DNA of 64,000 nucleotides from Gari tellinella (taxonomy: Eukaryota; Mollusca; Bivalvia; Cardiida; Psammobiidae). Within the stretch, counting starts at the first letter, position 1. Each line of letters opens with the position of its first letter. Shown piece after piece: positions 2,467 to 52,078 of the stretch. The translations under genes were made by a program, and so were the position numbers. The stretch lies in NCBI GenBank assembly GCA_922989275.2, contig OV277859.1, positions 87,478,198-87,542,197 on the forward strand, read 5' to 3'. The notes below the pieces were generated by a model. The model was given only the letters and a program-made list of their open reading frames with translations. It did not search any database and was not told where the DNA came from.

Positions 2467-2680
2467 TTAACCCTTAGCCTGCCACTCACGACTATAGCTC
2501 CATATGGAAACAGCTTGGATCCGGATGAGACGCCGAGTAACTCGGCGTCTCATCCGGATCCAAGCTGTTTGACACTCGGACAACATTTTCAGCAATTTTG
2601 AGCAACTTTGAAGCACTTTGAAACTTGAAGCAGACGAGAAATATAGCAGACGACAATTTATTTGGCGGGCTAAGGGTTAA
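2467..2680. mobile_element. TTAA-2 element with perfect h2 palindrome
   Basis: 214 bp from TTAA to TTAA with ends CCCTTAGCCTGCC and GGCGGGCTAAGGG. The centre 2508-2570 is a perfect palindrome of two 31-nt arms separated by one base. A copy of the same length at 54739-54952 differs at only a few positions, so the family moved recently. The CCCTTAGCC end recalls piggyBac-type termini. Confidence 0.9.
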
Positions 2681-2689
2681 CAATGGTTT

Positions 2690-3516
2690 ATGTCTTGTAC
2701 ATTAAAACATTGTCAAGACTAAGACAAATTACACACTAGAGCAGTATAATTTATGCTTGAAATTAACTATGCTATCAAAAAAGACATATTTCCTACACAT
2801 ACCCATTTAACTACCCTGGAAACTAAACACTACATTTTAAAAACTAGTGGCAAGATTCTTCGGGTATTGAACATGGTCAACTGAACAGAAAACCAATTTG
2901 GAAGAACATTAAACATACTGGTCAAGAGGTATTGTCATAATTGTCATCTAGGATTCAATAGGTCAATCGTACAGAAAACATAGGTCAACTGATGAATGGA
3001 AAAAAATATGACAGTGCCATGGAGATAAAAATGATGAAAATCATGAGAAAAAAAAATCAAAGGAACACACAGGGAGTATTTACCCTTTCACTGCCAAATT
3101 ATCATCGGCTTGATACTTCTCAGCATTTTTTGTTAGAAATGTTGATTGTAAGCTTTAACGACAAGCTACCAGAGGGCACCTGCTGTATGTAACCGGGTGC
3201 GATGTCCTACTCTTATTATCGACAGAGCTCTCTGGTTCTTTCGGATGCCCAATGTAAAGCACCGACACATTGGACCTCAGTTTCTAAAGTCTCATTGGAA
3301 GGATTTGGGATCTAATGTACCGCCTGATGTTTGCCGATGTGATTGGAAATGAAAAGGCTACAAGGAATGTAAAGTAGGTAAAACAGCTAACATATTAACA
3401 ATGGTTAAAACATCACTAAAGACAGTAAAGAGCTGATAAAACGTTTCAAATCTACATAGTCTGCAGGGCTGCCATTTTTCTGGATTTTTCCAATTTTTTT
3501 GTATATTTATCCAAGC
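2690..3516. other. Spacer with no recognised gene
   Basis: AT-rich sequence. TTACCCTTTCACTGCC near 3081 looks like one end of a TTAA-4-type element without its partner. CAGGGCTGCCATTTTTCTGG near 3465 is a left CAGG-3 end without a right end. The ATAAT at 2937-2941 is the empty target of the 4.25-kb transposon found in the paralogue. Confidence 0.6.
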
Positions 3517-3520
3517 AGGT

Positions 3521-3712
3521 GGTAGCTTAAAGCAGGTTGAAAGTAAAGCAAAATGCACCTTAAGGTGGGTGGTAGCTTAAAGCAGGTTGAAAGTAAAGCA
3601 GAATGCGCCTTAAGGTGGGTGGTAGCTTAAAGCAGGTTGAAAGTAACGCAAAATGCACCTTAAGGTGGGTGGTAGCTTAAAGCAGGTTGAAAGTAAAGCA
3701 GAATGCGCCTAA
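3521..3712 (+). repeat. Four-unit 50-bp tandem array of h1 left arms
   Basis: Units start at 3521, 3571, 3621 and 3671, each beginning GGTAGCTTAAAGCAGGTTGA and ending CCTTAAGGTGGGT. Only the left half of the h1 palindrome is repeated; no right arm is present. The last unit breaks off at GCGCCTAAAAAAG. Confidence 0.9.
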
Positions 3713-3724
3713 AAAAGAAGGTTT

Positions 3725-3833
3725 TGCAGCTATATAAAGGTTAGACATAAATGTCATGTTTGGGGAACAGCGGCAAGACTCGTTGTAAGGAGGGAGTCAT
3801 TGTTGGGAGGGCCATTGTAGGGAGGGAACACTG
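3725..3833. mobile_element. TA-2 element, one end only
   Basis: GTTGTAAGGAGGGAGTCATT and TGTAGGGAGGGAACACTG followed by TA form a typical TA-2 end. No matching opposite end is found to the left. Confidence 0.65.
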
Positions 3834-3880
3834 TATAAGCAAACATTGCTGACCAAGAAGAGAGATCACTAAATGCTGTG

Positions 3881-4162
3881 GCAACCGTGGCCTAGTGGTT
3901 AGGGCATCCGCCTCGGAAGCGGGAGGTCGAAGGTTCGAATCCCGGAGCCGGATACGGGGTTGGAACAGATGTGGCCGGTTGGTGAGCCGCCAGCTAGTTA
4001 AACGAATGGTTACCGTAGGCCTGTCTCTGCCAGATGCCCGGCAATAAGAGAAAGGATTCGGGAGGTACTGTGCGCGCAAAAAGGATAGGTGTCTCATAAG
4101 CCAAACTGGCTGGCCCTTTCAATAGGGGTGACACTATAATAAACAAAGCCTTTACCTTTTTT
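3881..4162 (+). mobile_element. tRNA-derived SINE with 7-bp target duplication
   Basis: The head carries a pol III A box (TGGCCTAGTGG, 3889-3899) and a B box (GGTTCGAATCC, 3932-3942). The 3' end is AATAAACAAAGCCTTTACC followed by T-rich sequence. TGCTGTG flanks the insert at 3874-3880 and 4163-4169. The paralogue has the uninterrupted site TGCTGTG at 33808-33814. The cloverleaf T and acceptor stems do not pair well, so this is a SINE head and not a working tRNA gene. Confidence 0.9.
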
Positions 4163-4200
4163 TGCTGTGTCTCATGAGGGGCCTACACTGTATAACTATA

Positions 4201-4405
4201 CAGTAAAACCTCGCTATTACGACCACTAAAACGAAGACTAATTGAGTGTTTAATAGACAGGTGACAGCTTAAAGCAAGGTGACAGTGAAACAGAAAGCTC
4301 CTAAAGGAGCTTTCTGTTTCACTGTCACCTTGCTTTAAGCGGTCACCTTTCGTAAACACCCTAATAATAACATAATTTAGTGGTCGTAATAGAGAGGTTT
4401 TACTG
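4201..4405. mobile_element. TA-1 element with h1 palindrome
   Basis: 205 bp flanked by TA. The ends are CAGTAAAACCTCGCTATTAC and GTAATAGAGAGGTTTTACTG with the extension CGACCACT/AGTGGTCG. The palindrome at 4260-4347 has arms GGTGACAGCTTAAAGCAAGG and apex GCTCCTAAAGGAGC. TA target and CAGTNAAACCTC ends suggest a Tc1/mariner-pogo (Tigger-like) non-autonomous element. Confidence 0.85.
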
Positions 4406-4409
4406 TATA

Positions 4410-4659
4410 TAGTTTTAACTATATTAAGTGAGAAGGTTATTGCATATAATATAACATCCTAACATATATTTTACCATGTACAATGTACAATCAGACATCC
4501 ATGAATTTGTAAACAAATAAACACAAACAAAAACCATGCAGAAACCATTAAACCATAAAATTCGTAAATATTCTAAAGATGGACAAAAATATCTTAATTA
4601 AAAATCTATTTTCAACGAATAAAACATTATGTTAAGATAGCTCAATTATGTTGGTAACT
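4410..4659. other. AT-rich spacer
   Basis: Spacer shared with the paralogue at about 34330-34530. I see no coding or structural feature. Confidence 0.5.
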
Positions 4660-4912
4660 TTTACCCATTACCCCATAAATACGCCTTTTTACGCCTTTAA
4701 ATTATTCCTTCAGTGAAGAAACAAGTTCAACTTTATACTGTTATGTATATACCATAAGATATATTTTCTATTCCCTAGCAGATTATAGCTTAAAGCACTA
4801 GGCTGCATGTAAAGCAGAATGCACCTTAAGGTGCATTCTGCTTTACTTTCAACCTGCTTTAAGTAGTCACATATTTTCAATACTAGAAACAGGCTACGGG
4901 GTAATGGGTTAA
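4660..4912 (-). mobile_element. TTAA-1 element (beta to alpha), absent from paralogue
   Basis: Starts TTTACCCATTACCCCATAAA and ends GGGGTAATGGGTTAA, with an h1 palindrome around TGCACCTTAAGGTGCA. The paralogue reads through the site with one TTAA at 34540-34543. Confidence 0.85.
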
Positions 4913-5198
4913 GATATGTGAACATCGGCCACTTAATAAACAAACATAACAATCTCTAAAAACTACTTAACCCATTGCTCTACAGGTTTGAGTGTGTTTG
5001 AGAAAACCCCATTAGTTTGATAATGTGTACTAGCCATGCATTAAAGATATCAAATTTGCTTTTAGAAATGCATAATTATAAACTTTATTGCACATGTTTT
5101 AGAAAAGAAACAAAAATGTACACATTATTTATATACAGACAAATTGATAGGTTCTAATGTTCCTCAGAGCCCTAAACTACCAGATAATAATAACAGTA

Positions 5199-5577
5199 CA
5201 CTGTTCCCTCTCTACAATGACACCCAATGAGAGACAAAAATGTGTGTTGTTCGAAGTGAGTTTCTTACAGGGAGGGAAAATTAATACCCTTAGAGTGCTT
5301 ACATTTGCAAATAGTTTATGCCTAGATCAGACGCCGCGTAAAGCGGCATCTGATCTAGGTTCAAACTAGTTGTAATTAGTCTTGATGTTTCTTCTGTCAA
5401 AATGTCCAATAACGTAACTTTCAGAAAAAACAGCAAACGACAATTTTAAGTAGATGACATTGCAGCAGTGAAAAGGTTAGACATACACATGTAATTGTGT
5501 TATTTGGGGAAAAGCTGCAAGGATTGTTGTAAGGAGGGAATCATTGTTCTAGGGACTGTTGTAGGGAGGGAGCACTG
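5199..5577. mobile_element. TA-2 element with h2 palindrome
   Basis: 379 bp flanked by TA (5197-5198, 5578-5579). Ends CACTGTTCCCTCTCTACAAT and GTAGGGAGGGAGCACTG. A central h2 palindrome, TAGATCAGACGCCGCG with CGGCATCTGATCTA, lies near 5322-5357. It also contains the internal TA-2 motif TTGTAAGGAGGGAATCATTG. Confidence 0.8.
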
Positions 5578-5611
5578 TACCATGTGATAATTCAACAATA
5601 ACCCTTCTCCT

Positions 5612-5854
5612 GGGGCCCATTTCATAAAACTTCGTACGACAAAAACGATCGTAAGTCAAAACTTTAAAATACATTTAATTTCTGATTTCTCTATCTAATC
5701 CTTTCTTGTAACATCTTTTTGGAATCGTCTTTTCAAGACGATTCCAAAAAGATGTGACAAGACAGGATTAGATAGAGAAATTAATAATTATTGAGACTTT
5801 TATAATCTGACTTACGATTGTTTTTGTCGTACAAAGTTTTATGAAACGGGCCCC
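5612..5854. mobile_element. GGCC-1 palindromic element
   Basis: 243 bp. GGGGCCCATTTCATAAAACT pairs with AGTTTTATGAAACGGGCCCC, and most of the interior is self-complementary up to the core GGAATCGTCTTTTCAAGACG. The paralogue near 35500-35510 lacks it. Superfamily unassigned. Confidence 0.85.
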
Positions 5855-5881
5855 AGCTGAGCAAGTTGCTGTTCTTAAAAC

Positions 5882-6366
5882 AGTAACTCATTACACCATA
5901 GATATGCCTATTTATGTATTTAATTCATTCCGCCACTGAACAAAATAGTTCCATTTTATACAGTTATAAATGTGCAACATAAGAAACTATGATATAATTA
6001 TAAAACATTGCTTATGATACAAAGTTCATGAATGTATAAATTGGAACTACAGTGTTCCCTCCCTACAACGACTCCCTCCTTACAACGACCCTTGCCACAG
6101 TTCCCTAAACAGGATAATTATGTCTAAGGCTTTTACTGCTGTAATACCGTTTGCTTAAAGCTGTCTCTGCTGTTTGCTGTAATATCGTTTGCTTAAAGTT
6201 GTCGTCTGCTGTTTTCTTAAAGTTACATAATGGACATTTTGACAGAAAAAACTTAATGTTGAGTGACACACGGCTTGAATCGTTGTATAGAGGGAGCGCT
6301 GTATTTGCTTCAGTGGAGGAAAAAACTGAATAGGCTAAAAGACGCTTCTACCAGGGAAAGGGTTAA
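5882..6366. mobile_element. TTAA-1 element with two beta ends, hairpin lost, TA-2 nested inside
   Basis: The left end is ATTACACCATAGATATGCC and the right end is GGGAAAGGGTTAA. The paralogous copy at 35533-35872 retains a full h1 palindrome where this one has only CTATGATATAATTATAAAAC (about 5985-6006). A TA-2 element occupies 6050-6301. Confidence 0.75.
6050..6301. mobile_element. TA-2 element nested in TTAA-1, empty site known
   Basis: 252 bp, CAGTGTTCCCTCCCTACAAC to GTTGTATAGAGGGAGCGCTG, with TA at 6048-6049 and 6302-6303. The paralogue reads GGAACTATTTTCTTC with one TA (35810-35811). It contains repeated TTTGCTTAAAG blocks but no clear palindrome. Confidence 0.9.
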
Positions 6367-6633
6367 AAATAATTACAGCCATGGGAATATTCATAATTAC
6401 ACAATATGGTAATGCTTTCATAATAAACTTATTGCTGTACATAGATTTGTTTAAATAAAAACACAACTTACCAAAACAATAATTAATGTTTCCATCCAGT
6501 TATTATACTTCTAGTGACCGTTATCTAAATTACAGGGTAAGTAACTCCTACAATCATCTTCATACATTTTGTACAACATTATCTGTATTTCTATCATATT
6601 ATATCCATGGTAAATATTTCATTGAATACATAC
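6367..6633. other. AT-rich spacer
   Basis: Shared with the paralogue 35873-36139. I see no gene or element. Confidence 0.5.
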
Positions 6634-6824
6634 CAGAGCTCCAGATAAGGTGAGTATTTCAACAAAAAATCTTTATTTCTGCATTAAACACTATGGTGTC
6701 ACTACTCATTAGACTTGTCCTTTCAAGACGATTCTAAAGAGTAGTAACACCATAGGATTTGGTGCTGAATGAGCAAAACAAATGTAAGATTTGTTCAATT
6801 TACTCCCTCTTACCTTAAGCCCTG
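6634..6824. mobile_element. CAGG-1 element
   Basis: 191 bp, CAGAGCTCCAGATAAG to CTTACCTTAAGCCCTG. The imperfect central palindrome is ACTATGGTGTCACTACTCAT with GAGTAGTAACACCATAGG. The end sequence CAGRG is hAT/P-like, but target duplication here is unclear; other copies show 5-7 bp. Confidence 0.8.
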
Positions 6825-6990
6825 AAAACTTACTGTTACAATATCAACAAGCACCTTAGAGCTGATATCCCCTGCCGCAGCGATTGTCGAGAAGAAAGTG
6901 GCAAACTTTACTGTGGGAGGAAGGGGCAAATGGTGTTCACCTTTCTTTAAAGACCAACATTGATAAACTTTTTACTAAGTTTTATAAAAA

Positions 6991-7115
6991 TCTGTTCAAT
7001 TTTCTACACAATAAAAGCCTAAACAATACTAAAATAATGCCTTTTCTAGCATATCTGAGTGGGCAGGTATATGTAACATTGTGAGCAAGTATTATTGTGT
7101 AGAAAATTGAACAGA
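6991..7115. repeat. 24-bp perfect inverted repeat
   Basis: TCTGTTCAATTTTCTACACA plus ATAA (6991-7014) is the exact reverse complement of 7092-7115, with a 77-bp spacer. Nothing coding is seen in between. It directly abuts a broken h3 arm (GAGGGCTCC). Confidence 0.75.
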
Positions 7116-7169
7116 GGGCTCCTATTGGATTTTTCATTGTTTTTTCTGTAGAGATTTCGGATTACATAT

Positions 7170-7208
7170 GCAAACAGTGTAGACCCTGATCAGAGGGCTC
7201 CTATAGGA
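7170..7208 (+). repeat. Half h3 hairpin
   Basis: CAAACAGTGTAGACCCTGAT CAGAGGGCTCC is a complete left arm; the right arm is missing and the sequence continues as TATAGGATATTTTC. A shorter piece (CAGAGGGCTCCTATTGG) precedes it near 7111. Confidence 0.65.
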
Positions 7209-7300
7209 TATTTTCATTGTTTTTTTATTGTCATACCAAAAATGCAACAACAGACTGGTTCAAAATACCTGTACTAGAAGAGTAATTTATCGTGAGGTTT

Positions 7301-9165: not shown

Positions 9166-9169
9166 CATA

Positions 9170-10100: not shown

Positions 10101-10126
10101 GTGCATTGTGGTCCTGATGAATTTAC

Positions 10127-11430: not shown

Positions 11431-11433
11431 AAG

Positions 11434-15237: not shown

Positions 15238-15451
15238 TTAACCCTTAGCCTGCCACTCACGACTATAGCTCCATATGGAAACAGCTTGGATCCGGATGAG
15301 ACGCCGAGTAACTCGGCGTCTCATCCGGATCCAAGCTGTTTGACACTCGGACAACATTTTCAGCAATTTTGAGCAACTTTGAAGCACTTTGAAACTTGAA
15401 GCAGACGAGAAATATAGCAGACGACAATTTATTTGGCGGGCTAAGGGTTAA
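15238..15451. mobile_element. TTAA-2 element, copy 2
   Basis: Second-unit counterpart of 2467-2680, palindrome still perfect. Confidence 0.9.
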
Positions 15452-16291
15452 CAATGGTTTATGTCTTGTACATTAAAACATTGTCAAGACTAAGACAAAT
15501 TACACACTAGAGCAGTATAATTTATGCTTGAAATTAACTATGCTATCAAAAAAGACATATTTCCTACACATACCCATTTAACTACCCTGGAAACTAAACA
15601 CTACATTTTAAAAACTAGTGGCAAGATTCTTCGGGTATTGAACATGGTCAACTGAACAGAAAACCAATTTGGAAGAACATTAAACATACTGGTCAAGAGG
15701 TATTGTCATAATTGTCATCTAGGATTCAATAGGTCAATCGTACAGAAAACATAGGTCAACTGATGAATGGAAAAAAATATGACAGTGCCATGGAGATAAA
15801 AATGATGAAAATCATGAGAAAAAAAAATCAAAGGAACACACAGGGAGTATTTACCCTTTCACTGCCAAATTATCATCGGCTTGATACTTCTCAGCATTTT
15901 TTGTTAGAAATGTTGATTGTAAGCTTTAACGACAAGCTACCAGAGGGCACCTGCTGTATGTAACCGGGTGCGATGTCCTACTCTTATTATCGACAGAGCT
16001 CTCTGGTTCTTTCGGATGCCCAATGTAAAGCACCGACACATTGGACCTCAGTTTCTAAAGTCTCATTGGAAGGATTTGGGATCTAATGTACCGCCTGATG
16101 TTTGCCGATGTGATTGGAAATGAAAAGGCTACAAGGAATGTAAAGTAGGTAAAACAGCTAACATATTAACAATGGTTAAAACATCACTAAAGACAGTAAA
16201 GAGCTGATAAAACGTTTCAAATCTACATAGTCTGCAGGGCTGCCATTTTTCTGGATTTTTCCAATTTTTTTGTATATTTATCCAAGCAGGT

Positions 16292-16483
16292 GGTAGCTTA
16301 AAGCAGGTTGAAAGTAAAGCAAAATGCACCTTAAGGTGGGTGGTAGCTTAAAGCAGGTTGAAAGTAAAGCAGAATGCGCCTTAAGGTGGGTGGTAGCTTA
16401 AAGCAGGTTGAAAGTAACGCAAAATGCACCTTAAGGTGGGTGGTAGCTTAAAGCAGGTTGAAAGTAAAGCAGAATGCGCCTAA
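16292..16483 (+). repeat. 50-bp h1-arm array, copy 2
   Basis: Second-unit counterpart of 3521-3712; unit number unchanged. Confidence 0.9.
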
Positions 16484-16495
16484 AAAAGAAGGTTT

Positions 16496-16933: not shown

Positions 16934-16971
16934 TGCTGTGTCTCATGAGGGGCCTACACTGTATAACTATA

Positions 16972-17176
16972 CAGTAAAACCTCGCTATTACGACCACTAA
17001 AACGAAGACTAATTGAGTGTTTAATAGACAGGTGACAGCTTAAAGCAAGGTGACAGTGAAACAGAAAGCTCCTAAAGGAGCTTTCTGTTTCACTGTCACC
17101 TTGCTTTAAGCGGTCACCTTTCGTAAACACCCTAATAATAACATAATTTAGTGGTCGTAATAGAGAGGTTTTACTG
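16972..17176. mobile_element. TA-1 element, copy 2
   Basis: Second-unit counterpart of 4201-4405. Confidence 0.85.
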
Positions 17177-17430
17177 TATATAGTTTTAACTATATTAAGT
17201 GAGAAGGTTATTGCATATAATATAACATCCTAACATATATTTTACCATGTACAATGTACAATCAGACATCCATGAATTTGTAAACAAATAAACACAAACA
17301 AAAACCATGCAGAAACCATTAAACCATAAAATTCGTAAATATTCTAAAGATGGACAAAAATATCTTAATTAAAAATCTATTTTCAACGAATAAAACATTA
17401 TGTTAAGATAGCTCAATTATGTTGGTAACT

Positions 17431-19886: not shown

Positions 19887-20071
19887 GGGCTCCTATTGGA
19901 TTTTTCATTGTTTTTTCTGTAGAGATTTCGGATTACATATGCAAACAGTGTAGACCCTGATCAGAGGGCTCCTATAGGATATTTTCATTGTTTTTTTATT
20001 GTCATACCAAAAATGCAACAACAGACTGGTTCAAAATACCTGTACTAGAAGAGTAATTTATCGTGAGGTTT

Positions 20072-21175
20072 TTAACCCCTTTACCGCCAAATTGTCGTCT
20101 GCTTCAATATTACTTTCTACAATGTCGTTTCAAAGTAAGAGATAAGGCAGTATATCTGACGTTATTTCAAACAAGTGGCAACCAGTTTTGGTCCTGATCA
20201 AACGCCGCGTCAGACGGCGTCTGATCAGGATCAAAACTGTTTGCAATTGTGCTTTATGACTTTTTTGAGAGCGGAAGGGCTATTCTCAGAATCACGGTAT
20301 CTGAGCAGTATCCACACTATTTCTCCTTTTCATGATCAAATTTATCGTGAGGTTTTTAACCCCTTTACCGCCAAATTGTCGTCTGCTTCAATATTACTTT
20401 CTTCAATGTCGTTTCAAAGTTAGAGATAAGGCAGTATATCTGACGTTATTTCAAACAAGTGGCAACCAGTTTTGATCCTGATCAAACGCCGCGTCAGGCG
20501 GCGTCTGATCAAGATCAAAACTGTTTGCAATTGTGCTTTATGACTTTTTTGAGAGCGGAAGAGCTATTCTCAGAATCACGGTATCTGAGCAGTATCCACA
20601 CTATTTCTCTTTTTCATGATCAAATTTATCGTGAGGATTTTAACCCCTTTACCGCCAAATTGTCGTCTGCTTCAATATTACTTTCTACAATGTCGTTTCA
20701 AAGTAAGAGATAAGGCAGTATATCTGACGTTATTTCAAACAAGTGGCAACCAGTTTTGATCCTGATCAAACGCCGCGTCAGGCGGCGTCTGATCAGGATC
20801 AAAACTGTTTGCAATTGTGCTTTATGACTTTTTTGAGAGCGGAAGGGCTATTCTCAGAATCACGGTATCTGAGCAGTATCCACACTATTTCTCCTTTTCA
20901 TGATCAAATTTATCGTGAGGTTTTTAACCCCTTTACCGCCAAATTGTCGTCTGCTTCAATATTACTTTCTACAATGTCGTTTCAAAGTTAGAATTAAGGC
21001 TGTATATCTGACGTTATTTCAAAGCAAGTGGCAGGCAGTTTTGATCTGGATCAAAACTATTTGCAATTGTACTTTATGACTTTTTTGAGAGTGGAAGGGC
21101 TATTCTCAGAATCACGGTGTCTGATCAGTTTCCACACTATTTCTCCCTTTCATGATAAATTTATCGTGAGGTTTT
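20072..21175 (+). repeat. 284-bp TTAA-4 array, copy 2
   Basis: Second-unit counterpart of 7301-8404. G20796 replaces T8025 in the third palindrome; G restores perfect arm pairing there, so the first copy carries the derived base. Confidence 0.9.
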
Positions 21176-21936
21176 TACTCCCCCCCCCCCTTTTTCTGCC
21201 AAATTGTCGTCTGCATCAATATAACTGTCTGCAATGCCGTTTCAAAACAAGTGGCAAACAGCGTCAAACAGCTTGTCCTTAAATACAGTGTAATCATAAG
21301 GAGTGCAATTGTCCTACTCGGTATACGCGCTTCGCGGAGTCTGATCAGGATCCAAACTATATACAAATTACTAGTGTATTCGGAGTAATGCAGAGAATGT
21401 AGTTAACACGTTGAATCGCCGATTATATCCGTCCTCCAAATACAGAGTGCATGTCGTATTAAGTGTCATTAGGGATGAACGGTTAAACAGGCCATTATTA
21501 TAAGCGGCATTCAACTGGAAACATTAGATTTTGAATTTTTCTCATACAGCCACGTTAGTATTCAATGCGCAAAAGCAACTGCGATATACATTGCTAATTT
21601 TAGATATGTCTGTGGAGACGATTTCAATCCTTTGTCTGCTGTATCGCGACTTTGCTGGTTTTTGCAAAAAGTTTGGTTCCAGATCAGACGTCACGTAACT
21701 CGGCGTCTTCTTTGGATCCAAGCTGCTTGATACTCGTCTTTTGATTTGTTTAATTCAAAAATGTATAAATCTACATTCAACACATTTTACAGACGATAAT
21801 TTCAAAGCACACGATTTTACAGCAAAATAACTTAAGGGTCAAGTTGCAGGTGCTTACAGGGGTGTAGTGTCATATATATTTGCCACCTACTCTTATCTCC
21901 TTAGAAAAGCAGAACGGATACCACATATGTCAATTA
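21176..21936. other. Element debris and spacer, copy 2
   Basis: Second-unit counterpart of 8405-9165, with the imperfect h2 palindrome near 21676-21733. Confidence 0.55.
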
Positions 21937-24204: not shown

Positions 24205-24430
24205 TTAACCCCCTGAAGGCCTTCACTGCCATAACGTCATCTATTGCAACAATTTTTATCTGCTTTTCTTTCTCAAATTTAAATTTGAGGTATTTTGACT
24301 CAATAAATTTTGAATTGAGTGTCAAATAGATGGGTCTTGATCAGATGCTATGTTACGCGGTGTCTGATCATGATCCAGCAAACTATTTGCAAATAACTAT
24401 TGTACTCGGGTAAGGCAGTGAAGGGGTTAA
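24205..24430. mobile_element. TTAA-5 element, copy 2
   Basis: Second-unit counterpart of 11434-11659. Confidence 0.8.
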
Positions 24431-24586
24431 TCTTTTGTAAGGTGAGCAGATTCTGTAATCTACTAGCAAAGTTGTTGTTGACTGCATTTCTAAGAGTATA
24501 TGCCATGCCCTTTAGAAAAGATTATCACTTACTTGACATTCAGAATATTATAATAATCCTATGTAATTCGGGCAGACAGGTCTGAT

Positions 24587-25251: not shown

Positions 25252-25502
25252 TTAACTCATTCCCCCCTGAAGTTTTTAATGGACAATTCCAATTTCAAAA
25301 TACGTCTAGTTCATTTTTTACTATTTAGGGATGATTTTAACAATATATTTCAAAATGACAAACAGTGTATACCCTGATCAGAGGGCTCCTTATGGAGCCC
25401 TCTGATCAGGGTCTAAACTGTTTGCATAGGACAAGTGCAATCCTCACAGGTAAACTGTTTGTAAATGATGAGTATACTCGTCACTAGGGTTGAATGTGTT
25501 AA
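25252..25502 (+). mobile_element. TTAA-3 element, copy 2
   Basis: Second-unit counterpart of 12481-12731; C25267 replaces A12496. Confidence 0.9.
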
Positions 25503-31728: not shown

Positions 31729-32189
31729 CATCCATAAATATTATTCTGAGGATAACTTCTCACACGATGTATGTAAAATTACAATTTTTTGTACATAAAA
31801 TGGTACAATCATACACTTGGATTCGGCATGAAATCCGTGAATGTATATATGCGTTTGTCCTTAAATAAGATCCTAACATGAAGCAATGTTGACTTTTGCT
31901 CGGTACCAGGGAGGCCTTTTACAGCTGTAGTACGACGATCTTACAACGTATACATCAGTTGAAACTATGAGTTATATCAATAAATATATGTGGACCCATT
32001 AGTGGTTCATTTGTGCTGGCTAACTAAATGGAAGTTCAAAATAACAGCGAATTTCATACCTGCTATGTTTGTTTATGTTGATTTTCCTCGCTTCGCCTGG
32101 TACCTATTTCCGGAGTCGTTGCTATACGGTGATAATTGTGTAAAACATTAACATAGTCCTTTCTAGAAGGTTGTAACATTTAACTTATA

Positions 32190-32404
32190 CAGTAAAACCT
32201 CTCTATTACAACCACTTTAAAGAAAGCTTATAGTAATTGATTGTATAAAAGATGGGTGACAGCTTATTAAAAGAAAGGTGGCAGTAAAACAGAAAGCTCC
32301 TAAAGGAGCTTTTTGTTTTACTGTCATCTTGCTTTAAGCAGTCACCTGTATAAAACACTTCGTAATTTACACAATTTAGAGCTCGTAACAGAGAGGTTTT
32401 ACTG
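32190..32404. mobile_element. TA-1 element with h1 palindrome
   Basis: 215 bp in TA flanks, CAGTAAAACCTCTCTATTAC to GTAACAGAGAGGTTTTACTG. Palindrome with apex GCTCCTAAAGGAGC. Absent from the young copies. Confidence 0.85.
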
Positions 32405-32449
32405 TACTTCATGAATACATAGCTACATGGTTTCAATCTGATGCTTCTA

Positions 32450-34320: not shown

Positions 34321-34809
34321 AACTCTATCAAGAAAGAAGGTTATTGCATATAAAACATCCTAACATATATTTGAGACTATATACAATAAGACATCCATGA
34401 ATTTGTAAACAAATAAAAACAAAAAAACATGAAGTAAACATTAAACCATAAAGATACAAATATCTTAATTAATAATCTATTTAACAAATAAAATATTATG
34501 TTAAGATGGCTCAATTATGTTTGTAACTCTTGAACTACATTAAAATATGTGAACAGCGGTCACTTAATAATTAAACAAAAATAACAATCTGTAAAAAATG
34601 CTTAACCTATTGCTCTACAGGTTTGAGCATGTTTGAGAAAACCCCATTAGATAGATAATTTGAAATAGCCGTGCATTAGAGATATCAAATTTGCTTTTAG
34701 AAAATTGAGTAAAAATGCATATAAACTTTATTGCACATGTTTTAGAAAAGAAACAAAAATGTACACATTATTTATATACAGACAAATTGATAGGTTCTAA
34801 TGTTCCTCT

Positions 34810-35052
34810 GGGGCCCGTTTCATAAAACATCTTACGACAAAAACGATCGTAAGTCTAATCTTAAAAATACATTCAATTTCTGATTTCTCTATCTTATCCT
34901 GTCTTGTGACATCTCTTTGGAATCGTCTTTTCAAGACGATTCCAAAAAGATGTCACAAAACAGGATTAGATGGAGAAATAAATAATAATTTAGACTTTTA
35001 TAATCTGACTTACGACAACATTTGTCGTAAGAAGTTTTATGAAACGGGCCCC
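34810..35052. mobile_element. GGCC-1 element, empty site known
   Basis: 243 bp, GGGGCCCGTTTCATAAAACA to GTTTTATGAAACGGGCCCC, self-complementary throughout. The young copies read TTCCTCAGAGCCC at 5159-5171 without it. A 91-codon frame crossing it is not a gene. Confidence 0.9.
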
Positions 35053-35085
35053 AGAGCCCTAAACTACCAGATAATAATAACAGTA

Positions 35086-35532: not shown

Positions 35533-35872
35533 AGTAACCCATTACACATTAAATATGCATTTTTATGTATTTAATTCATTCCGCCACTGAACAAAATAGT
35601 TCTATTTTATACCATTACTGTTATTAATGTGCAACATAAGAAATATGTTCTATATCCTAGCAGATCGTAGCTTAAAGCAGGCTTAAAGTCAAGCAGAAGG
35701 CGCCTTAAGGCACATTCTGTTTTACTTTCAGCCTGCTTTAAGCTACCATTGGCTAGGATGTATTAAACATTTCTTATGATACATGTTTCATGAATGTATA
35801 AATTGGAACTATTTTCTTCAGTAGAGGAAAACTGAATGTGCTAAAAGGAGCTTCTATCGGAGGAAGGGTTAA
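35533..35872. mobile_element. TTAA-1 with two beta ends and intact h1 palindrome
   Basis: Counterpart of 5882-6366 without the nested TA-2 and with the h1 palindrome present (35672-35745). It shows the ancestral state of that element. Confidence 0.8.
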
Positions 35873-37927: not shown

Positions 37928-38118
37928 TACACAACAATCTAATATAGTATCCCTGGTTATAATGACCAGATGGGAAATGAAGCCAGATGGTAAAGGTTAG
38001 CCTATGTTGACAGGCAGGCTAACTAGAATTGGCAATCACTATGCCAGAGAGTCTATAATTCCACCCATGATTATTGTTATTATTGCTCTACTAACCTGAG
38101 ATAGAATTGAGCCTACTA
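37928..38118. other. Spacer
   Basis: About 190 bp with a short inverted motif (GGTTAGCC, GGCTAACT); nothing recognised. Confidence 0.45.
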
Positions 38119-38323
38119 CAGTAAAACCTATCTACTACGACCACTAAAAACAAGGCTAATTGGTTGTTTAATAGAGAGGTGACAGCTTAAAGCAAGGTGG
38201 CAGTAAAACAGAATGCTCCTAAAGGAGATTTCTGTTTTACTGCCACCTTGTTTTAAGCAGTCACCTGTCTTCAACACTTAATAATAAACACAATATAGTG
38301 GTCTTAATTTAGAGGTTTTACTG
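38119..38323. mobile_element. TA-1 element with h1 palindrome
   Basis: 205 bp, TA on the left, CAGTAAAACCTATCTACTAC to GAGGTTTTACTG. Apex GCTCCTAAAGGAG. Confidence 0.85.
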
Positions 38324-38384
38324 TTCATAAAATTAACCCTTCACTAACAGAACAAGTTGTCTTCATTGAAAAATATAGATGACT

Positions 38385-41257: not shown

Positions 41258-41376
41258 TGGCAAACAGTAGGAATCTTGATCAAATACCAAATCACCCGAT
41301 AATCTCAATCAGTCTGGATCAAGTTCACACACATGGTTATTTAACATGTAATCTTGATGCAAACTTTCTGTAAATA

Positions 41377-41808
41377 CAGTAAAACCTTTCCATTACGACC
41401 ACTAAAACCAAGGTCAATTGATTGTATAAAGCAAGGTCAGAGTTCCAGATAAGGGGGGTAATTCAAAAATTAAAATCTTTATTTCTGCTTTAAACCCTAT
41501 GGTGTCACTACTCATTAGAATCGTCTCAAAGTGACGATTCTAATGAGTAGTAACAACATAGGATTTAGTGCTGAAATAAGTGAGAAAATGATGGATTTGT
41601 TCTGTTTACTCCCCCTTATCTGGAACCCTGCAAAGTGACAGTAAAACAGAAAGCTCCTTTAGGAGCTTTCTGTTTTACTGTCACCTTGCTTTAAGCAGTC
41701 ACCTGCCGTAAACACCTGATATTAACAATTAAGTAACGTAAGCAGTCACCTGTCATAAACACCTACTAGTTCACATAATTCAGTGGTGGTAGTAGACAGG
41801 TATTACTG
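41377..41808. mobile_element. TA-1 element split by CAGG-1
   Basis: TA-flanked, CAGTAAAACCTTTCCATTAC to GTAGTAGACAGGTATTACTG. The h1 left arm is interrupted at GCAAGGT/CAAAGTGACAG. A part of the right flank (GCAGTCACCTGYCRTAAACACCT) is duplicated. Confidence 0.8.
41438..41630. mobile_element. CAGG-1 nested in the TA-1 hairpin arm
   Basis: 193 bp, CAGAGTTCCAGATAAGGGGG to CCCCCTTATCTGGAACCCTG. The core palindrome CATTAGAATCGTC/GACGATTCTAATG is nearly perfect. CAAGGT and CAAAGT at the edges look like a 6-bp target duplication with one change. Confidence 0.85.
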
Positions 41809-42159
41809 TACCAGTCAAGTCAGTAATAGCATGATAAAGGTTAATACAAGATTAAAGTAGCTGAGAACGGCAGCTGTTTGTACTAAATTTACTGATTAAA
41901 CTTGGAAAATGTCATTAGATTTGTCCCAATCACCATTATACATTCCATCGTTTGTTTAACAGCCAATGAATAGGTGAATTAGCAGTATTAAGACAGATGG
42001 CAGCTTAAAACAGGAAAAAATTAAAAGCAGAAAACTACAGTAAGAGCATTCTGCTTCACTTTTCTTCTGCATTGTCTTACAAGATATCTAAACTTCTTAA
42101 AAGAATGGTCTGAGCTCTCTTATCACAAAGTAATAAGTTAATAGAAACTGTGCCATGTG
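41809..42159. other. Spacer with a decayed hairpin
   Basis: ATGGCAGCTTAAAACAGGA with GCATTCTGCTTCACTTTTC (41994-42075) is an eroded h1. Otherwise nothing. Confidence 0.5.
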
Positions 42160-42496: not shown

Positions 42497-42752
42497 CAGG
42501 GCTGCCATTTCTCCGGATTTTTCCTAAATCTTCGGATTTTTTTCTAGTACATAGTAACTTAAAGCAGGCTGAAAGTAAAGCAGAATGCGCCTTAAGGCGC
42601 ATTCTGCTTTACTTCCAGCCTGCTATAAGTAGTCACATGCCAACAAAACTAGAAATAGGCTATGGGTTAAAGGTACGATTCGTAAAATCACACTTGAAAA
42701 AATGCAAATTTGGAAATCTTAGGATTTTTCATGTCAACTTATGGCAGCCCTG
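42497..42752. mobile_element. CAGG-3 element carrying an h1 palindrome
   Basis: CAGGGCTGCCATTTCTCCGG at the left and ATGGCAGCCCTG at the right; ATACAA is repeated on both flanks. The interior is an h1 palindrome plus a TTAA-1 alpha side (CTAGAAATAGGCTATGGGTTAA), but no TTAA-1 beta end. A third terminal type with h1 in the middle. Confidence 0.75.
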
Positions 42753-44929: not shown

Positions 44930-45432
44930 AATCAGATAGTAGCTTAAAGCAGGAGGCTGAAAGTAAAGTAGAATGCACCTCAAGGCGCATTCTGCTTCAC
45001 TTTCTAAAGCAGGCTGAAAGTAAAGCAGAATGTACCTCAAGGCGCATTCTGCTTCACTTTTTAAAGCAGGCTGAAAGTAAAGCAGAATGCACCTTAAGGC
45101 GCATTCTGCTTCATTTTCTAAAGCAGGCTGAAAGTAAAGCAGAATGCACCTCAAGGCGCATTCTGCTTCACTTTCTAAAGCAGGCTGAAAGTAAAGCAGA
45201 ATGCACCTCAAGGCGCATTCTGCTTCACTTTTTAAAGCAGGCTGAAAGTAAAGCAGAATGCACCTTAAGGCGCATTCTGCTTTACTTTCAACCTGCTTTA
45301 AACTACTATCTTCTGGATATAGAACATTTTACATATAGGATATATTTAAAACTGAGTAAATTGGAACTATTTTACTCAGTGGAGGAATAAATGAATGGCG
45401 TAAAAAGGCGTATTTATGCGGTAATGGGTTAA
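44930..45432 (-). mobile_element. TTAA-1 element with expanded palindrome array
   Basis: GAAATATTTCCTGTAGCC starts a truncated side; the right end GAATGGCGTAAAAAGGCG to GCGGTAATGGGTTAA is a normal beta end. The h1 centre has been amplified into a six-unit array. Confidence 0.8.
44947..45300 (+). repeat. 57-bp tandem array of h1 palindromes
   Basis: Units begin AAAGCAGGCTGAAAGTAAAG; five repeats step by exactly 57 bp from about 45004 to 45232, preceded by one longer first unit. Each is a palindrome (apex CCTYAAGG). Units 1-5 share GCTTCACTTT or GCTTCATTTT in the right arm; the last keeps GCTTTACTTTCAACC. Because 57 is a multiple of three, open frames of 160 (+) and 131 (-) codons result, with a 19-residue repeat (LKQAESKAECTSRRILLHF). 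I judge these not to be proteins. Confidence 0.92.
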
Positions 45433-46217: not shown

Positions 46218-46277
46218 TATTTCAAAGACACATCTCAGCAATGAGAGAACATGTGCACAGTAAAACCTGACCCCAAG

Positions 46278-47398: not shown

Positions 47399-47637
47399 GT
47401 AACAGTAAAGCAGAAAGCTCCTTTATCGTACATTAAGATGTCATCTTTATTTATCACTATCCATGAATCTTTCTTAGAGTGGCTGTTATAGTGGGGGTTC
47501 ACTACATGTATCGCAAGACATTGAAATTTTGTCATTTGGTGGTGTCTGAAACAGGCCCCATGTACTATATTGATAGTGTAATAGACCAATGGTGAATGGG
47601 GCATTGGGGAGAACTCATTGGCAGCTACAGTCAAAAC

Positions 47638-47868
47638 TCTCTAAACCAGACATTTGCGACACAATTTATTTTATGTCTTAACCAGTTATATAGTTACAGG
47701 TGGCAGATCAACAGGTGAAAGCTTAATGCAGGATGAAAGTAAGACAGAAAGCTCCCACAGGGAGCTTTCTGTCTTACTTTTATCCAGCATTAAGCAGTCA
47801 CCTGTACATTGGATTTTGTGGTTTATCATCCCTTCTTCAAGAGTGTCTGACTTAGAGAAGTTTTACTG
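47638..47868. mobile_element. TA-1-related element with variant h1
   Basis: CAGTCAAAACTCTCTAAACC to TTAGAGAAGTTTTACTG in TA flanks. The palindrome AGCTTAATGCAGGATGAAAG with TATCCAGCATTAAGC has apex GCTCCCACAGGGAGC. Confidence 0.8.
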
Positions 47869-48606
47869 TACATAATTATGGTTTTTGTGAAAGCTTTTTT
47901 TTCTGTGTATCAGACATTCTGTGTATTTTATGAGTAAGGAAACACAATATTGAAGAAGCCTACGAAGCCTCATAAATTTCAGGGCCAAAAAACCCAAAAT
48001 ATCACTGAAATTATTAGCTGATTCACAGCTCTGAGTATCTGCATGGAGGTGTTTTATGCAATGTTTCACCATTATGCTTTACGACAGGAGGCAGTTTTTG
48101 TCAGCAAAATCTGTCATCCACAGCAATACTCAAGTTGAATTATCCAGAACTGCTTTACCTCACTAAAGCAAGACTTGAATGAAATATGCAAACAGTTCGG
48201 ATCCAGATAATTATACCCAAAATATGAAAATACTTTCAAAATAACGATGTAAAAATAAAATTTTGTCTTAACCTCAGGTTTAGATTACCACACATCAAAT
48301 TACACTATCATTTCTGTATTTTAGGCCTGCTTAAATCACTCTGTAAAAATGCACTGTCTCATAGAAAACTGGGTCAAGGGCACAATTTTAATGTCACACG
48401 ATCGACCGTTTTCTAAACAGTTGATGCTAAATTTACTATAGGTCTAGGAAAAGGACATTTTCCACGATCTCTCGTTATTCAAAGACTGAATAAATCTGAA
48501 ACTTTGTGCATGTGAATTCTTAAGAAACAATCTGGTACATCATCTCGTGTAGGTAAAAAGCACAGGACCTGGTATATTGTTTGAAAAAAAATAATCTCAA
48601 TACAAA
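47869..48606. other. TMEM65 intron spacer
   Basis: A lone h2 half arm (GCAAACAGTTCGGATCCAGA near 48188) is the only recognisable piece. Confidence 0.5.
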
Positions 48607-49044: not shown

Positions 49045-49241
49045 CAGTGCTCCAGATAAGAGGGAGTAAATTAAACAACTCCCAATAGTTTCTCTTTCTT
49101 GTCAGCACCAAATCCTATAGTGTAACTTATACTCATTTAAAGAATGATAAAAGATACAATTTTAATGAGTAGTCATACCATATGATTTAATGCAGACATA
49201 AAGATTTTAATTTTTGATTCCCTTATCATTCTGAAGTCCTG
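49045..49241. mobile_element. CAGG-1 element abutting a splice acceptor
   Basis: CAGTGCTCCAGATAAGAGGG to CTTATCATTCTGAAGTCCTG; decayed core ATTTAAAGAATGA/AATTTTAATGAGTAG. It starts 22 bp upstream of the TMEM65 acceptor, so the branch point is probably inside it. Confidence 0.8.
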
Positions 49242-49728: not shown

Positions 49729-50085
49729 GGTCAAGATTGTAATCAGACAGAAAAACCATCAAAGCATTAAGACAGACAGACATGCAGTCAGACCAAAAAT
49801 AAAATGCCTGATAATTGGATGATCAGGTCAATAGAACTAAATTATGGTACCTATAATAGTCAGATCACAACATTGGATTGGGTCAAACTCTGGGATGATA
49901 ACCGATTTACATAAAATATGTTGCCTAAATTGTTTATGTCCTTACTTAAAAGTTGAAGTCACAAACCCTCATTATAAACCCAACCTGTCTTTTTATACTA
50001 TACATGTAAAGCTTATAATGCAACTCTAAGACTTGAAGACCATAAGCTAATTTTCGGTTACTCTTTAAACAAATATTATATTTAT
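49729..50085. other. TMEM65 intron spacer
   Basis: AGACAGACAGACATGCAGTC short repeat; otherwise featureless. Confidence 0.45.
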
Positions 50086-50352
50086 TAGCCTATTACTCAA
50101 TAAATACATATTTTTACCCCTTTAATATATTCTTCCTCTGAAGAACATAGTTCCACTTTATAGTTATAATAGTTATATGAATATGCTCCATATAGGCAAT
50201 ATTCTATATACCCTAGCAGATGGTTACGAGCTTAAAGCAGGTTAAAAGTAAAGCAGAATGTGCACATTCTGCTTTTCTTTCAACTTGCTTCAAGTCACAG
50301 GTCACCTGTCTTCAAAACTAGAAGCAGGCTATGGATCAGTATTATAAAGGGT
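50086..50352 (-). mobile_element. TTAA-1 element, apex deleted
   Basis: Beta end CTATTACTCAATAAATAC; the palindrome reads AGCAGAATGTGCACATTCTGC, that is, the apical CCTTAAGG is missing; alpha side CTAGAAGCAGGCTATGG. Confidence 0.7.
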
Positions 50353-50610
50353 TTTAAGTCTATGCCATGGTTATGAATCTTTAACCCTATATGATCAATA
50401 TGAGTCTATCAAATTTGGAGTAAAATTGATATTTAATTGCATTAAGCCTGATAATATTTCACCATGAACTTGAAAATTCCATGAAATATTTATTAGCAAT
50501 GAAATATATTGGTCCATTGGGTGTTTGTTATTTTCCTAGGAAGAGCCTCGAATACCAGGTTGAAAATTAATGTTTATTATAAGTGCGAGCTTTATATAGC
50601 TATCGTTACC
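50353..50610. other. TMEM65 intron spacer
   Basis: Nothing recognised. Confidence 0.5.
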
Positions 50611-50862
50611 GTAACCCATTACCCCATAAATACATCTTTTTAAGCCTCTAATATATCTCTTCACCGAAGAAAATAGTTCCAATTTATACAGTTGTGAATA
50701 TTTAACATTAGAAATGATGTCTATATTCTAGCAGCTGGCAGCTTAAAACAGGTTGAAAGTAAAGCAGAATGTGCCTTAAGGCACATTCTGCTTTACTTTC
50801 AACCTGCTTTAAGTGGTCACCTGTCTTCAAAACTAGAAATAGGTTATGGGGTATTGGGTTAA
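50611..50862 (-). mobile_element. TTAA-1 element
   Basis: 252 bp, GTAACCCATTACCCCATAAA to GGGGTATTGGGTTAA, h1 apex GTGCCTTAAGGCAC. The 109-codon minus-strand frame here runs through palindrome sequence and is not a gene. Confidence 0.88.
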
Positions 50863-51085
50863 ATAGTATCTTGGTAAAAGAACTTTTGAGGCAACATAAA
50901 TTTATAAAATTCCTGACACACCAATTTTCCCAGGCGAATTTAAAAAAATCCTCTTGATTTCTCCTTGACCTAGAGAAATTTTCAATTTTTCCTTGTTTTT
51001 CCCAGAACTTTCGAACCCTGTGTGAGTCAATTGGCAACCATAGGTAACCCTTTGTGGCATGGTATCCAACAAGTCGGCAAACACT

Positions 51086-51316
51086 TTAACCCTTTACTCC
51101 ATAGTCTGTTTCTGGTTTTGAAGATAGCTAGGTGATCATTTAAAGCAAGTTGATAGTAAAGCAGAATGTGCCATAAGGTTCATTCTGCTTTTCTTTCAAC
51201 CTGTTTTATTAGCTACAATCTGCTGGAATTTAGAAAGCATTTCTTATGATAGTCATAATCATGACTATATAAATTGGAACTAGTTTCTTCAATGGAGGAA
51301 TAAAGTAAATGAGCAA
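51086..51316 (+). mobile_element. TTAA-1 element, right end lost
   Basis: TTAACCCTTTACTCCATAGT, h1 with apex GTGCCATAAGGTTC, beta side stops after GGAGGAATAAAGTAAATG. Confidence 0.75.
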
Positions 51317-51776
51317 TGCAACTATTTTAATAAGAAAATCAGTTATTACAACAAATCCTGACTGTAATATTTTCTAATTTTGTCTGACCAACTACTTCAT
51401 CAACCATATATTTGAATAAAATGAAGTATACATTGAATGATTCAGTTTTTTGTAATTCAATTTTTTAGCATTTTGCAAAATTTAGATAGCTGATAACATC
51501 TTTCTGAACACCTTTATTCAAAATGTTTTCAGCTTTTCTTGTAATGAATGTTGTGGACTACTTATTGGGCGAGATTTATATTCATTAGCTTTATTTATTT
51601 TTGAGAAAAATAAAATAATCAAAATTCCAGGTTTTTGTAAGAAAAAGAGACCTTAAAGACAAACCACATGATAAATTTTGCCTATATTTTCACACATTGT
51701 TTCTCAGGCTATTATCATTCTTCATGAAAAGTTTCATAACACCTTGTATGGAAACTAAGCGCACCTGCGAAGTACC
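51317..51776. other. TMEM65 intron spacer
   Basis: AT-rich; nothing recognised. Confidence 0.5.
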
Positions 51777-51928
51777 TTAAGGAGCCCTCTGATCAGGGTC
51801 TACACTGTTTATCATTTTGAAATATATTTTCAAATTAACCCTAACCTAAATAGTCAAAAATGGACTAGACTTACATGTACTTTGAATTTGGAATTGTCCA
51901 TTAAAAGTTTCAGGGGTGAATGAGTTAA
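51777..51928 (+). mobile_element. Half TTAA-3 element bounded by TTAA on both sides
   Basis: Starts exactly at an apical TTAA (CCTTAAGGAGCCCTCTGATC), runs through the right h3 arm and the normal TTAA-3 end (CAGGGGTGAATGAGTTAA). The left half of the element is absent. Confidence 0.75.
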
Positions 51929-52020
51929 ATGATATTGCTGAAGCATTTTGCATGTAAGAGAATAATTTGATTTAACTTTTGTATCTTATGCAGCAAACTT
52001 GGATATAAATATATTTACTC

Positions 52021-52078
52021 TAGTTTTGGATCCTGATCAGATGCCGAGTTACTCAGCATCTGATCAGGGTCCAAAATT
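52021..52078. repeat. h2 palindrome
   Basis: TTTTGGATCCTGATCAGATG and its complement around CCGAGTTACTCAGC; the paired change ATGCC/AGCAT relative to TTAA-2 (ACGCC/GGCGT) is compensated. Confidence 0.8.

Follow-up and report, generated by a model that had tools for sequence, protein, structure and literature searches.

Miniature inverted-repeat transposable elements (MITEs) are assigned to families on the basis of their ends, and what lies in the core usually counts as filler. In corals, the CMITEs are TTAA-target MITEs with an internal region of about 75 bases that is conserved across families more than the terminal inverted repeats; tandem arrays and a new element that arose by CMITE insertion have also been described, and a role of the core in transposition was suggested (PMC2872659). 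In Lucina pectinata, a 210-bp repeat (consensus 1) has 30-bp imperfect inverted ends, a 77-bp central palindrome and similar fragments in other molluscs, and a 92-bp repeat (consensus 2) contains a 68-bp self-complementary segment and has a short piece in common with consensus 1 (PMC4732748). Highly conserved domains of short interspersed elements (SINEs) are shared by different mobile elements, and the V domain has moved into the Mariner-derived MITE MER6 (PMC6887750). Bivalve MITEs of the Pearl family carry internal modules and tandem repeats; in one of them, DTC84, a conserved palindrome lies close to the repeat junction (PMC5139131). Six of 32 novel MITE-like clusters in Anopheles gambiae are palindromic repeats (PMC3212995), and in yeast, internal sequence of mPing and mPong was assayed to stimulate or repress transposition (PMC9921582). 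In this study, we analysed a stretch of 64,000 bp (the window) of the bivalve Gari tellinella (assembly GCA_922989275.2, contig OV277859.1, positions 87,478,198 to 87,542,197), in which a preliminary description had placed identical palindromes at the centre of MITE families with different ends.

The sharing of cores across vehicles with different ends is real. Four core types (h1 to h4) were defined, and h1 and h2 were both found in MITEs with TTAA targets (4 bp), in MITEs with TA targets (2 bp) and in CAGG-ended MITEs with mostly 6-bp target duplications (Table 1; the labels TA-2, TA-3, TTAA-4, TTAA-5, CAGG-3 and CAGG-4 are those of this analysis, and their equality with earlier labels is uncertain). 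Consensus parts were compared by alignment z scores, and single arms by 50,000 shuffles. Profile scores count the evidence twice when both palindrome arms match at once, which the single-arm tests avoid. The consensus sequences of TTAA-1 (17 aligned copies) and TA-1 (seven copies, two of them diverged) have an ungapped block of about 105 bp in common, with unrelated outer flanks. Their single h1 arms are identical at 37 of 46 positions, against a maximum of 27 among the shuffles, and the core z was about 10, with flank z ≤0 if the 98-bp TA-1 palindrome was taken as the core. If only the inner 72 bp were taken, flank z rose to 4.0-5.4, because AGACAGGTGAC, inside the common block and beyond the palindrome, is shared too. 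TTAA-1 and TA-1 retain distinct variants of the core. The h1 core was also confirmed in a CAGG-ended element, between copies of a 6-bp duplication.

The h2 core was confirmed in TTAA-2, TTAA-4 and TTAA-5, and is also present in a 284-bp TTAA-ended unit (TTAA-284) and in two TA families. The core of TA-2 (the 60624 element) matches those of TTAA-2 (z 8.3) and TTAA-284 (z 8.5), and the TTAA-5 core gives a weaker match (z 5.2 to TTAA-284 and 6.4 to the 60624 element); flanks are unrelated in all of these comparisons. TTAA-2, TTAA-284 and TTAA-4 are not clearly independent cases, because their flanks are related as well (z 8.9 for TTAA-2 and TTAA-284; 149 of 237 columns for TTAA-2 and TTAA-4 in one unshuffled full-length alignment, a pair below the listing threshold of the z comparison). 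The h3 core of the GGGGCCC-ended vehicle (GGGCCC) and the h4 core of the vehicle with CAGRGCTCCAGATAAG ends (CAGG-4) are related to each other (core z 6.7, flank z ≤1.6), with 27 of 40 positions identical in single arms and a maximum of 25 in the shuffles. The inner motif CAGANNGCTCC is common to h1 and h2b with weak support, the comparison of TA-1 with 24587 being equalled by 645 of the 50,000 shuffles. Two details of the preliminary description did not hold throughout. The palindrome is central in TA-1 (flanks of 56 and 55 bp) and GGGCCC (73 and 75 bp), and off-centre in TTAA-1 (49 and 131 bp), TTAA-2 (41 and 109 bp) and TTAA-4 (120 and 40 bp). The h3 vehicle, reported as a TTAA element, had neither a TTAA duplication nor any clear target duplication in eight copies.

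The vehicles have the properties of MITEs: consensus elements of about 190-390 bp, inverted ends, target duplications (none clear for GGGCCC) and no long coding frame. Among rows found by ends, the TTAA duplication was exact in 19 of 24 for TTAA-1 and three of four for TTAA-5, and the TA duplication in 13 of 15 for TA-2, two of four for TA-1 and two of three for TA-3. From the target duplication, TTAA-1 and TTAA-5 are putatively piggyBac-like, and the TA families putatively Tc1/mariner/pogo-like. The consensus edges of TA-2 are sharp (TACAGTGGAGAA...TTCTCCACTGTA), and we take CAGTNNNNCCTC ends to resemble those of pogo/Tigger. CAGG-3 and CAGG-4 were not classed as hAT, with an exact 8-bp duplication in 0 of 13 and 0 of 7 rows; exact 6-bp duplications, read from printed flanks, were present in nine of 12 distinct CAGG-3 and four of seven CAGG-4 copies.

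Both cores and vehicles are abundant. Window counts are limited to the non-redundant part, 12772-64000, because bases 1-12771 recur with three differences at 12772-25542, in a tandem segmental duplication with a period of 12,771 bp, whose partial third copy (25543-27289) is only about 87% alike. This part contains 53 palindromes scoring at least 20, compared with none in each of ten first-order Markov simulations, which rules out chance palindromes as the source. A profile search with the four core types (E ≤0.01, partial matches counted) yielded 71 h1, 30 h2, 11 h3 and 14 h4 matches here, the h3 and h4 profiles matching each other's copies. A random genome sample of 20 stretches of 10 kb (200 kb; L015-L034) contained 114, 151, 14 and 19 matches, respectively; with 114 and 151 matches per 200 kb, h1 and h2 palindromes are very common in this genome. 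We clustered the outward flanks of 290 cores of at least 35 bits, taken from the random stretches, from the window and from eight loci retrieved for the similarity of their palindromes. Eight main vehicles accounted for 167 of them: TTAA-1 (67), TA-2 (29), CAGG-4 (17, one half-type being mixed), TTAA-5 (14), CAGG-3 (11, inflated by the query and including one duplicate locus), GGGCCC (10), TA-1 (10) and TA-3 (9); the other 123 belong to smaller types or have one flank unclassified. Both flanks fell in a repeated half-vehicle type for 99 of 140 h1 and 61 of 115 h2 cores, and neither flank did for 11 and 17, respectively. When elements were sampled by their ends only, h3 was present in all nine GGGCCC, h4 in all 13 CAGG-4, h1 in 48 of 50 TTAA-1 and ten of 17 loosely defined TA-1, and h2 in 19 of 22 TA-2 and six of seven TA-3 elements.

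The shared core is also slow to change. Divergence was measured mainly as substitutions from the consensus, in sets of copies picked by flanks or ends and never by the core, with CpG-prone columns removed; CAGG-4 and GGGCCC, whose bounds were not located, are unrated. In four families the palindrome had 1.5 to 4 times fewer substitutions than the spacers: 163/3581 (4.6%) versus 1206/7204 (16.7%) in TTAA-1 (n=55; ends 9.8% and 13.3%), 2.8% versus 6.1% in TA-2 (n=18; ends 7.5% and 4.2%), 8.5% versus 13.1% in TA-1 (n=10; ends 5.4% and 4.6%) and 6.9% versus 14.1% in TTAA-5 (n=15; ends 8.0%). The difference holds per consensus base in TTAA-1, TA-2 and TA-1, and columns with a variant in at least four TTAA-1 copies amounted to seven of 68 in the core versus 78 of 134 in the spacers. 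A genome-wide TTAA-1 set, picked by the last 68 bp (32 full-length of 40), gave 3.7% for the palindrome versus 13.8% and 15.0% for the spacers, and the core distance in this set stays at about 0.07 while the spacer distance doubles. In TTAA-1, TA-2 and TTAA-5, the core varies less than the ends too, as in CMITEs. We therefore consider an inert role of the palindrome improbable.

Changes in the core often affect both arms. Cells differing from the commonest pair were counted in cores of the random sample and compared with shuffled data. Among 96 h2 sequences, 276 changes were compensated, 333 affected one arm and 31 left both arms changed and unpaired (shuffled compensated mean 89.9, maximum 108); the numbers were 123, 241 and 13 for 74 h1 sequences (mean 32.2, maximum 42), and 46, 103 and 15 for 15 h4 sequences (mean 25.3, maximum 41). 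This excess supports symmetry in the source lineages and is no proof of selection, since related sequences can exceed shuffles without any structure. Within h2, compensated changes are few in the blocks CAAACAG and GATCAGA, while several positions between or after these blocks have 20-49, in counts where local alignment favours the outermost columns; the pattern is as for a hairpin with fixed recognition motifs. By inspection, h2 arms in the random stretches tend to retain these two blocks around a variable middle, which is quite different in one case (L032 8746-8814). Two other palindromes (L032 5796-5862 and L025 8175-8244) appeared by eye to combine the outer arm of one subtype with the inner arm of another, symmetrically on both sides.

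It had been proposed that a palindrome found in unrelated vehicles either moves between them or is selected in each. Movement was seen directly in TA-3, where a TTAA-4-like element can be aligned over almost its whole length (identity in 136 of 201 columns; flank z 7.4; nine copies clustered), and in trimmed form in CAGG-3, whose consensus includes an ungapped block of 130 bp that corresponds to positions 6-135 of the 252-bp TTAA-1 consensus, the inner element having therefore lost its TTAA end and the right 117 bases. Nesting of TTAA-MITEs explains the presence of the core in these two vehicles. A simple nest in which the inner element keeps its own ends, the outcome that was to refute the earlier proposal if it held in every case, was found in TA-3 only, and CAGG-3 with h1 is a truncated nest. 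A search by CAGG-3 ends gave 14 pairs, nine with h1, two with h2 and three without either. Of the nine h1 rows, four were over-long or overlapping window pairs and five were plausible copies, in which the 6-bp duplication was exact in four and had one mismatch in the fifth. The two h2 copies (duplication exact in one) share about the first 80 and the last 35-50 vehicle bases with the h1 consensus, and their insert starts at about the same vehicle position, with TTAA visible by eye at both borders. In our interpretation, a single TTAA of CAGG-3 served two different TTAA-MITEs as insertion site, the alternative being replacement by recombination. One TTAA-1 copy of the window already lacks the stretch between its end and AGACAGGTGAC (25499-25528), which would be a step towards a TA-1-like core.

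Based on these observations, we consider it fairly probable that the palindromes are core domains of TTAA-target (piggyBac-like) MITEs that spread by nesting. A TTAA-MITE would insert at a TTAA site inside another MITE, the outer ends would mobilise the composite, deletions would trim the inner element down to its palindrome, and the trimmed composite would amplify as a new family, placing the core inside TA-target and CAGG-ended vehicles. The core would survive trimming and stay symmetric if copies with an intact palindrome amplify better, and it would most likely act via a host factor or a DNA hairpin and not via one transposase. We infer the same history for TA-1 and TA-2, which have only the core, an origin of the palindromes in TTAA-MITEs and a cis function behind the constraint. 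Because the target duplications are of at least three kinds, a transposase-specific enhancer is unlikely and a host-side or structural role would be likelier. Our proposal is that the core contributes to amplification in cis, by way of the host, with homogenisation or a slower local mutation rate as alternatives. A further-reaching version is possible, though less likely than not: MITEs of at least three transposition systems may depend on a transferable palindromic cis module, read by a host factor or forming a hairpin in copying, which spreads via TTAA nesting and whose arms co-evolve around fixed motifs.

Several observations weigh against this explanation. Inner TTAA ends were not recognised in TA-1, TA-2 or GGGCCC/CAGG-4, so a nested origin of these vehicles can only be inferred, and the TTAA beside the TA-1 core is not conserved across aligned copies. 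In the chimeric TTAA-1 element at 35535-35872, 96 of 141 columns agree between the two halves, agreement with the consensus is 111 of 136 for one half and 105 of 133 for the other, and the ends belong to two types; this element indicates that recombination at palindromes also occurs. In TA-1 it is the ends, not the palindrome, that vary least. The palindrome/spacer ratio is flat down to the closest pairs (0.30-0.41 in TTAA-1 and 0.52-0.63 in TA-2, half-split pairs with the regression bias removed), and a slower rate or homogenisation is therefore possible, since selection on source copies predicts a rise towards 1 in close pairs; in TA-1 the trend is opposite, the ratio going from about 0.6 up to 1.0 in the distant pairs, with few pairs. 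The half-split test and the genome-wide set point in different ways, so that both selection and a slow rate remain. The few common variants in the TTAA-1 palindrome show linkage with variants of the spacers (mean r2 0.037 versus 0.020 shuffled; 0.041 versus 0.020 among spacer variants and 0.041 versus 0.019 among the few palindrome variants, 21 pairs), and the palindrome is therefore not free of inherited change. Within families, one-sided changes far outnumber compensated ones (129 versus 8 in TTAA-1, 60 versus 7 in TA-1 and 26 versus 0 in TA-2), the pattern expected for decay after insertion. The compensated excess is small (8 versus 2.7 shuffled in TTAA-1, 3/1000; 7 versus 2.4 in TA-1, 1/1000; 0 versus 0.3 in TA-2), a separate arm-pairing test gave 13 compensated changes against a shuffled mean of 8.8 (200/5000 as high), and arm pairing within families was rejected as the main pattern. 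One TTAA-1 asymmetry is persistent, with T on the left arm in all 11 readable copies and C on the right arm in 13 of 16. As for selection in each vehicle, lower variation than in the spacers and frequent two-arm changes support the earlier proposal, and selection on source copies is one possible cause. Similar singleton numbers were dropped as proof of source selection, since a hand estimate indicates that homoplasy in 55 copies predicts them under a rate difference as well.

Two other processes were considered. It is somewhat improbable that the palindromes are passengers only, carried by nesting without any role, with correction of hairpin arms keeping their symmetry and a lower substitution rate of hairpin DNA giving the low divergence. 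The nearly constant palindrome/spacer ratio in TTAA-1 and TA-2 fits this idea, as do singleton rates that are similar in palindrome and spacer in both families, a measure confounded by homoplasy. However, arm correction predicts many compensated changes within families, and only 8, 7 and 0 were found; the two h2 blocks with few compensated changes and many between them (with the outermost columns favoured by local alignment), and the retention of the core in every GGGCCC and CAGG-4 copy found by ends, also argue against it. Recombination or gene conversion at palindromes, in which hairpin-stalled forks or cleaved breaks are repaired from another copy so that cores or halves are swapped and the core is homogenised, we regard as an unlikely explanation. 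It would explain the chimera, where the right halves of two TTAA-1 subfamilies are joined at one palindrome, the lower divergence of the palindrome at all distances in TTAA-1 and TA-2, the two-sided changes between families and the two inserts at about one place of CAGG-3. Yet among the 71 h1 matches in the window, no core was recognised between a flank of TTAA-1 and a flank of TA-1, which leaves constant core exchange between these families unsupported; the two families keep distinct core variants, and TA-3 and CAGG-3 with h1 have the appearance of insertions in which parts of the inner element survive.

That the palindrome itself is mobile, with ends of its own (e.g. TTAA-AGCAGG...CCTGCT-TTAA) with which it inserts into MITEs, appears very unlikely. 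In many h1 palindromes, TTAA does stand at the end of each arm and at the centre, and TTAA-like motifs border the TA-1 core consensus; against this, the TTAA-1/TA-1 homology passes these sites into AGACAGGTGAC, and most h1 and h2 cores have both flanks in a repeated half-vehicle type. There is hardly any room left for chance or low-complexity likeness of independent palindromes: all are AT-rich hairpins, and support for CAGANNGCTCC as a motif common to h1 and h2b is weak, but the single-arm identity and core z of TTAA-1 and TA-1, with unrelated flanks, refute it within h1, and it is likewise refuted within h2, the relation between h1 and h2 lying outside that verdict. Two other candidates were rejected. 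About five of 18 elements lie in h1 TTAA sites, which make up 20.4% of all TTAA sites, and h1 palindromes are thus no clear hot spots of TTAA-1 insertion. A snap-back origin of whole vehicles was discarded for TA-1 (inverted-flank z 0.4), CAGG-4 (0.6), TTAA-2 (-1.7), TTAA-4 (-0.1) and TTAA-5 (0.7); flanks without terminal repeats do align as inverted copies in GGGCCC (z 4.3), in the 60624/TA-2 element (z 3.6) and weakly in TTAA-1 (z 2.6).

If TTAA-MITE nesting with a retained core is the correct explanation, it suggests an origin of new MITE families, in which one MITE receives a TTAA-MITE as an insertion and the composite multiplies after trimming. If amplification requires the core, the spread of MITEs would be limited by a host process that several transposition systems have in common.

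Table 1. Coordinates of vehicles, cores and derived structures in the 64,000-bp window
Feature	Position	Strand	Remarks
TTAA-1 MITE, TTAA target, ends CCCWTTACCCCATA	55790..56052	+	17 copies aligned, this being one; 49 bp between h1 and one end
h1 palindrome in TTAA-1, 72 bp	55839..55910	.	
TA-1 MITE, TACAGTAAAACCTC ends, 209 bp	16970..17178	+	h1b palindrome 17030-17119, central
TA-1 copy with h1b	32188..32406	+	family alignment
TA-1 copy with h1b	38117..38325	+	family alignment
TA-1 copy	41375..41810	+	palindrome region broken by CAGG-4 element (41438-41630)
TA-1 copy with h1b	56554..56766	+	family alignment
TA-1b, diverged TA element	47626..47870	+	h1-type core with features of TTAA-1 and TA-1 types
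TA-1c, more diverged TA element	54483..54704	+	h1-type core
CAGG-3, ends CAGGGCTGCCAT / ATGGCAGCCCTG	42497..42752	- (relative to CAGG-3 consensus)	duplication ATACAA; TTAA-1 fragment with h1 42558-42629
TTAA-2 MITE	15238..15451	+	h2 palindrome 15279-15342
TTAA-2, second copy	54739..54952	+	h2 54779-54843
TTAA-4 MITE	24205..24432	+	h2-type core 24325-24389
Tandem array of 284-bp TTAA-ended unit (TTAA-284)	20055..21246	+	h2 cores
TTAA-5 MITE	25252..25502	+	h2b core 25359-25424; other copies ~22912-23155, 36404-36652
TA-3, consensus ends TACAGTGCTCCCTCCCTACAA	17968..18350	+	nested TTAA-4-like element with h2 18079-18143
TA-3, other copies	35084-35475, 45864-46219		h2 cores 35196-35262, 46054-46118
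TA-2, consensus ends TACAGTGGAGAA / TTCTCCACTGTA	60554..60803	+	left end degenerate here; h2 60622-60684
TA-2, second copy, partial	~22608-22760		
GGGGCCCGTTTCATAAA element, h3 core	34806..35056	+	foldback nearly full-length; others ~18381-18627, 37544-37790, 41009-41260
CAGG-4, CAGRGCTCCAGATAAG ends, h4 core	41438..41630	+	
CAGG-4, other copies	~19405-19595, 36140-36316, 43027-43210, 49045-49217, 52556-52747, 56106-56298		
Chimeric TTAA-1	35535..35872	.	two right halves joined at one h1 palindrome (35671-35742)
Tandem array of whole h1 palindromes	44954..45289	.	57-bp unit
Tandem array of h1 half-palindromes (single arms)	16289..16481	.	50-bp unit; duplicate 3518-3710

The window is repeat-rich, with a G+C content of 33-38% per 4-kb step, and lies in a genome of 1.6 Gb in 80 contigs, at least 18 of which exceed 50 Mb. 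Only two closed open reading frames of at least 120 amino acids are present, overlapping on opposite strands inside one tandem array. Two further long palindromes with 59-bp arms stand side by side (46295-46418 and 46472-46592) without a match to the h1-h4 profiles. Among the random stretches, L024 (1560-2394) contains other palindromic repeats that look unrelated to h1-h4, and L026 (582-778) a TA-ended element whose ends resemble TA-1 by a loose pattern and whose different palindrome has no h1-h4 profile match. Near a TA-1 copy, matches to the tRNA covariance model (3881-3950 and 16652-16721; 35.4 bits, gathering score 29; none by ARAGORN) are possibly the head of a SINE, and at gathering scores Rfam gave nothing beyond these two. 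A satellite-like array (61426-63467, about 145/291 bp) contains GACCTAGTTTTTGACC, presumably a satellite type of bivalves. Searches of viral contigs returned six single 17-base matches, taken as chance, and otherwise none, and GTDB contigs gave no matches.

In open-licence literature, we recognised no description of one palindromic core across MITEs with TTAA, TA and 6-bp targets. The CMITEs are described with TTAA targets, whereas the core found here also occurs in elements with TA and 6-bp targets; neither palindrom nor hairpin occurs as a word in the CMITE main text, and the comparison is by description, the sequence being given only in a figure (PMC2872659). The anatomy of Lucina consensus 1 is that of TA-1 (209 bp, 32-bp ends), again by description of a sequence given only in a figure; section 17 of that paper describes no core common to elements with different targets, and its text contains none of three short strings taken from the cores and ends seen here (PMC4732748). 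In the parts of the reports at hand, the Pearl MITEs have satellite-like internal repeats and no described core shared across target types (PMC5139131), and no core common to differently ended vehicles is described for the Anopheles gambiae clusters (PMC3212995). The mPing/mPong work concerns one transposase system, and its abstract includes no palindrome (PMC9921582); nor does the abstract on SINE domains, whereas palindromic cores occur here in several kinds of DNA elements (PMC6887750). As far as these sources go, the nearest precedents are the coral CMITEs and the conserved SINE domains, and the palindromic module, if it acts as proposed, would be to DNA transposons what the conserved central domains are to SINEs.

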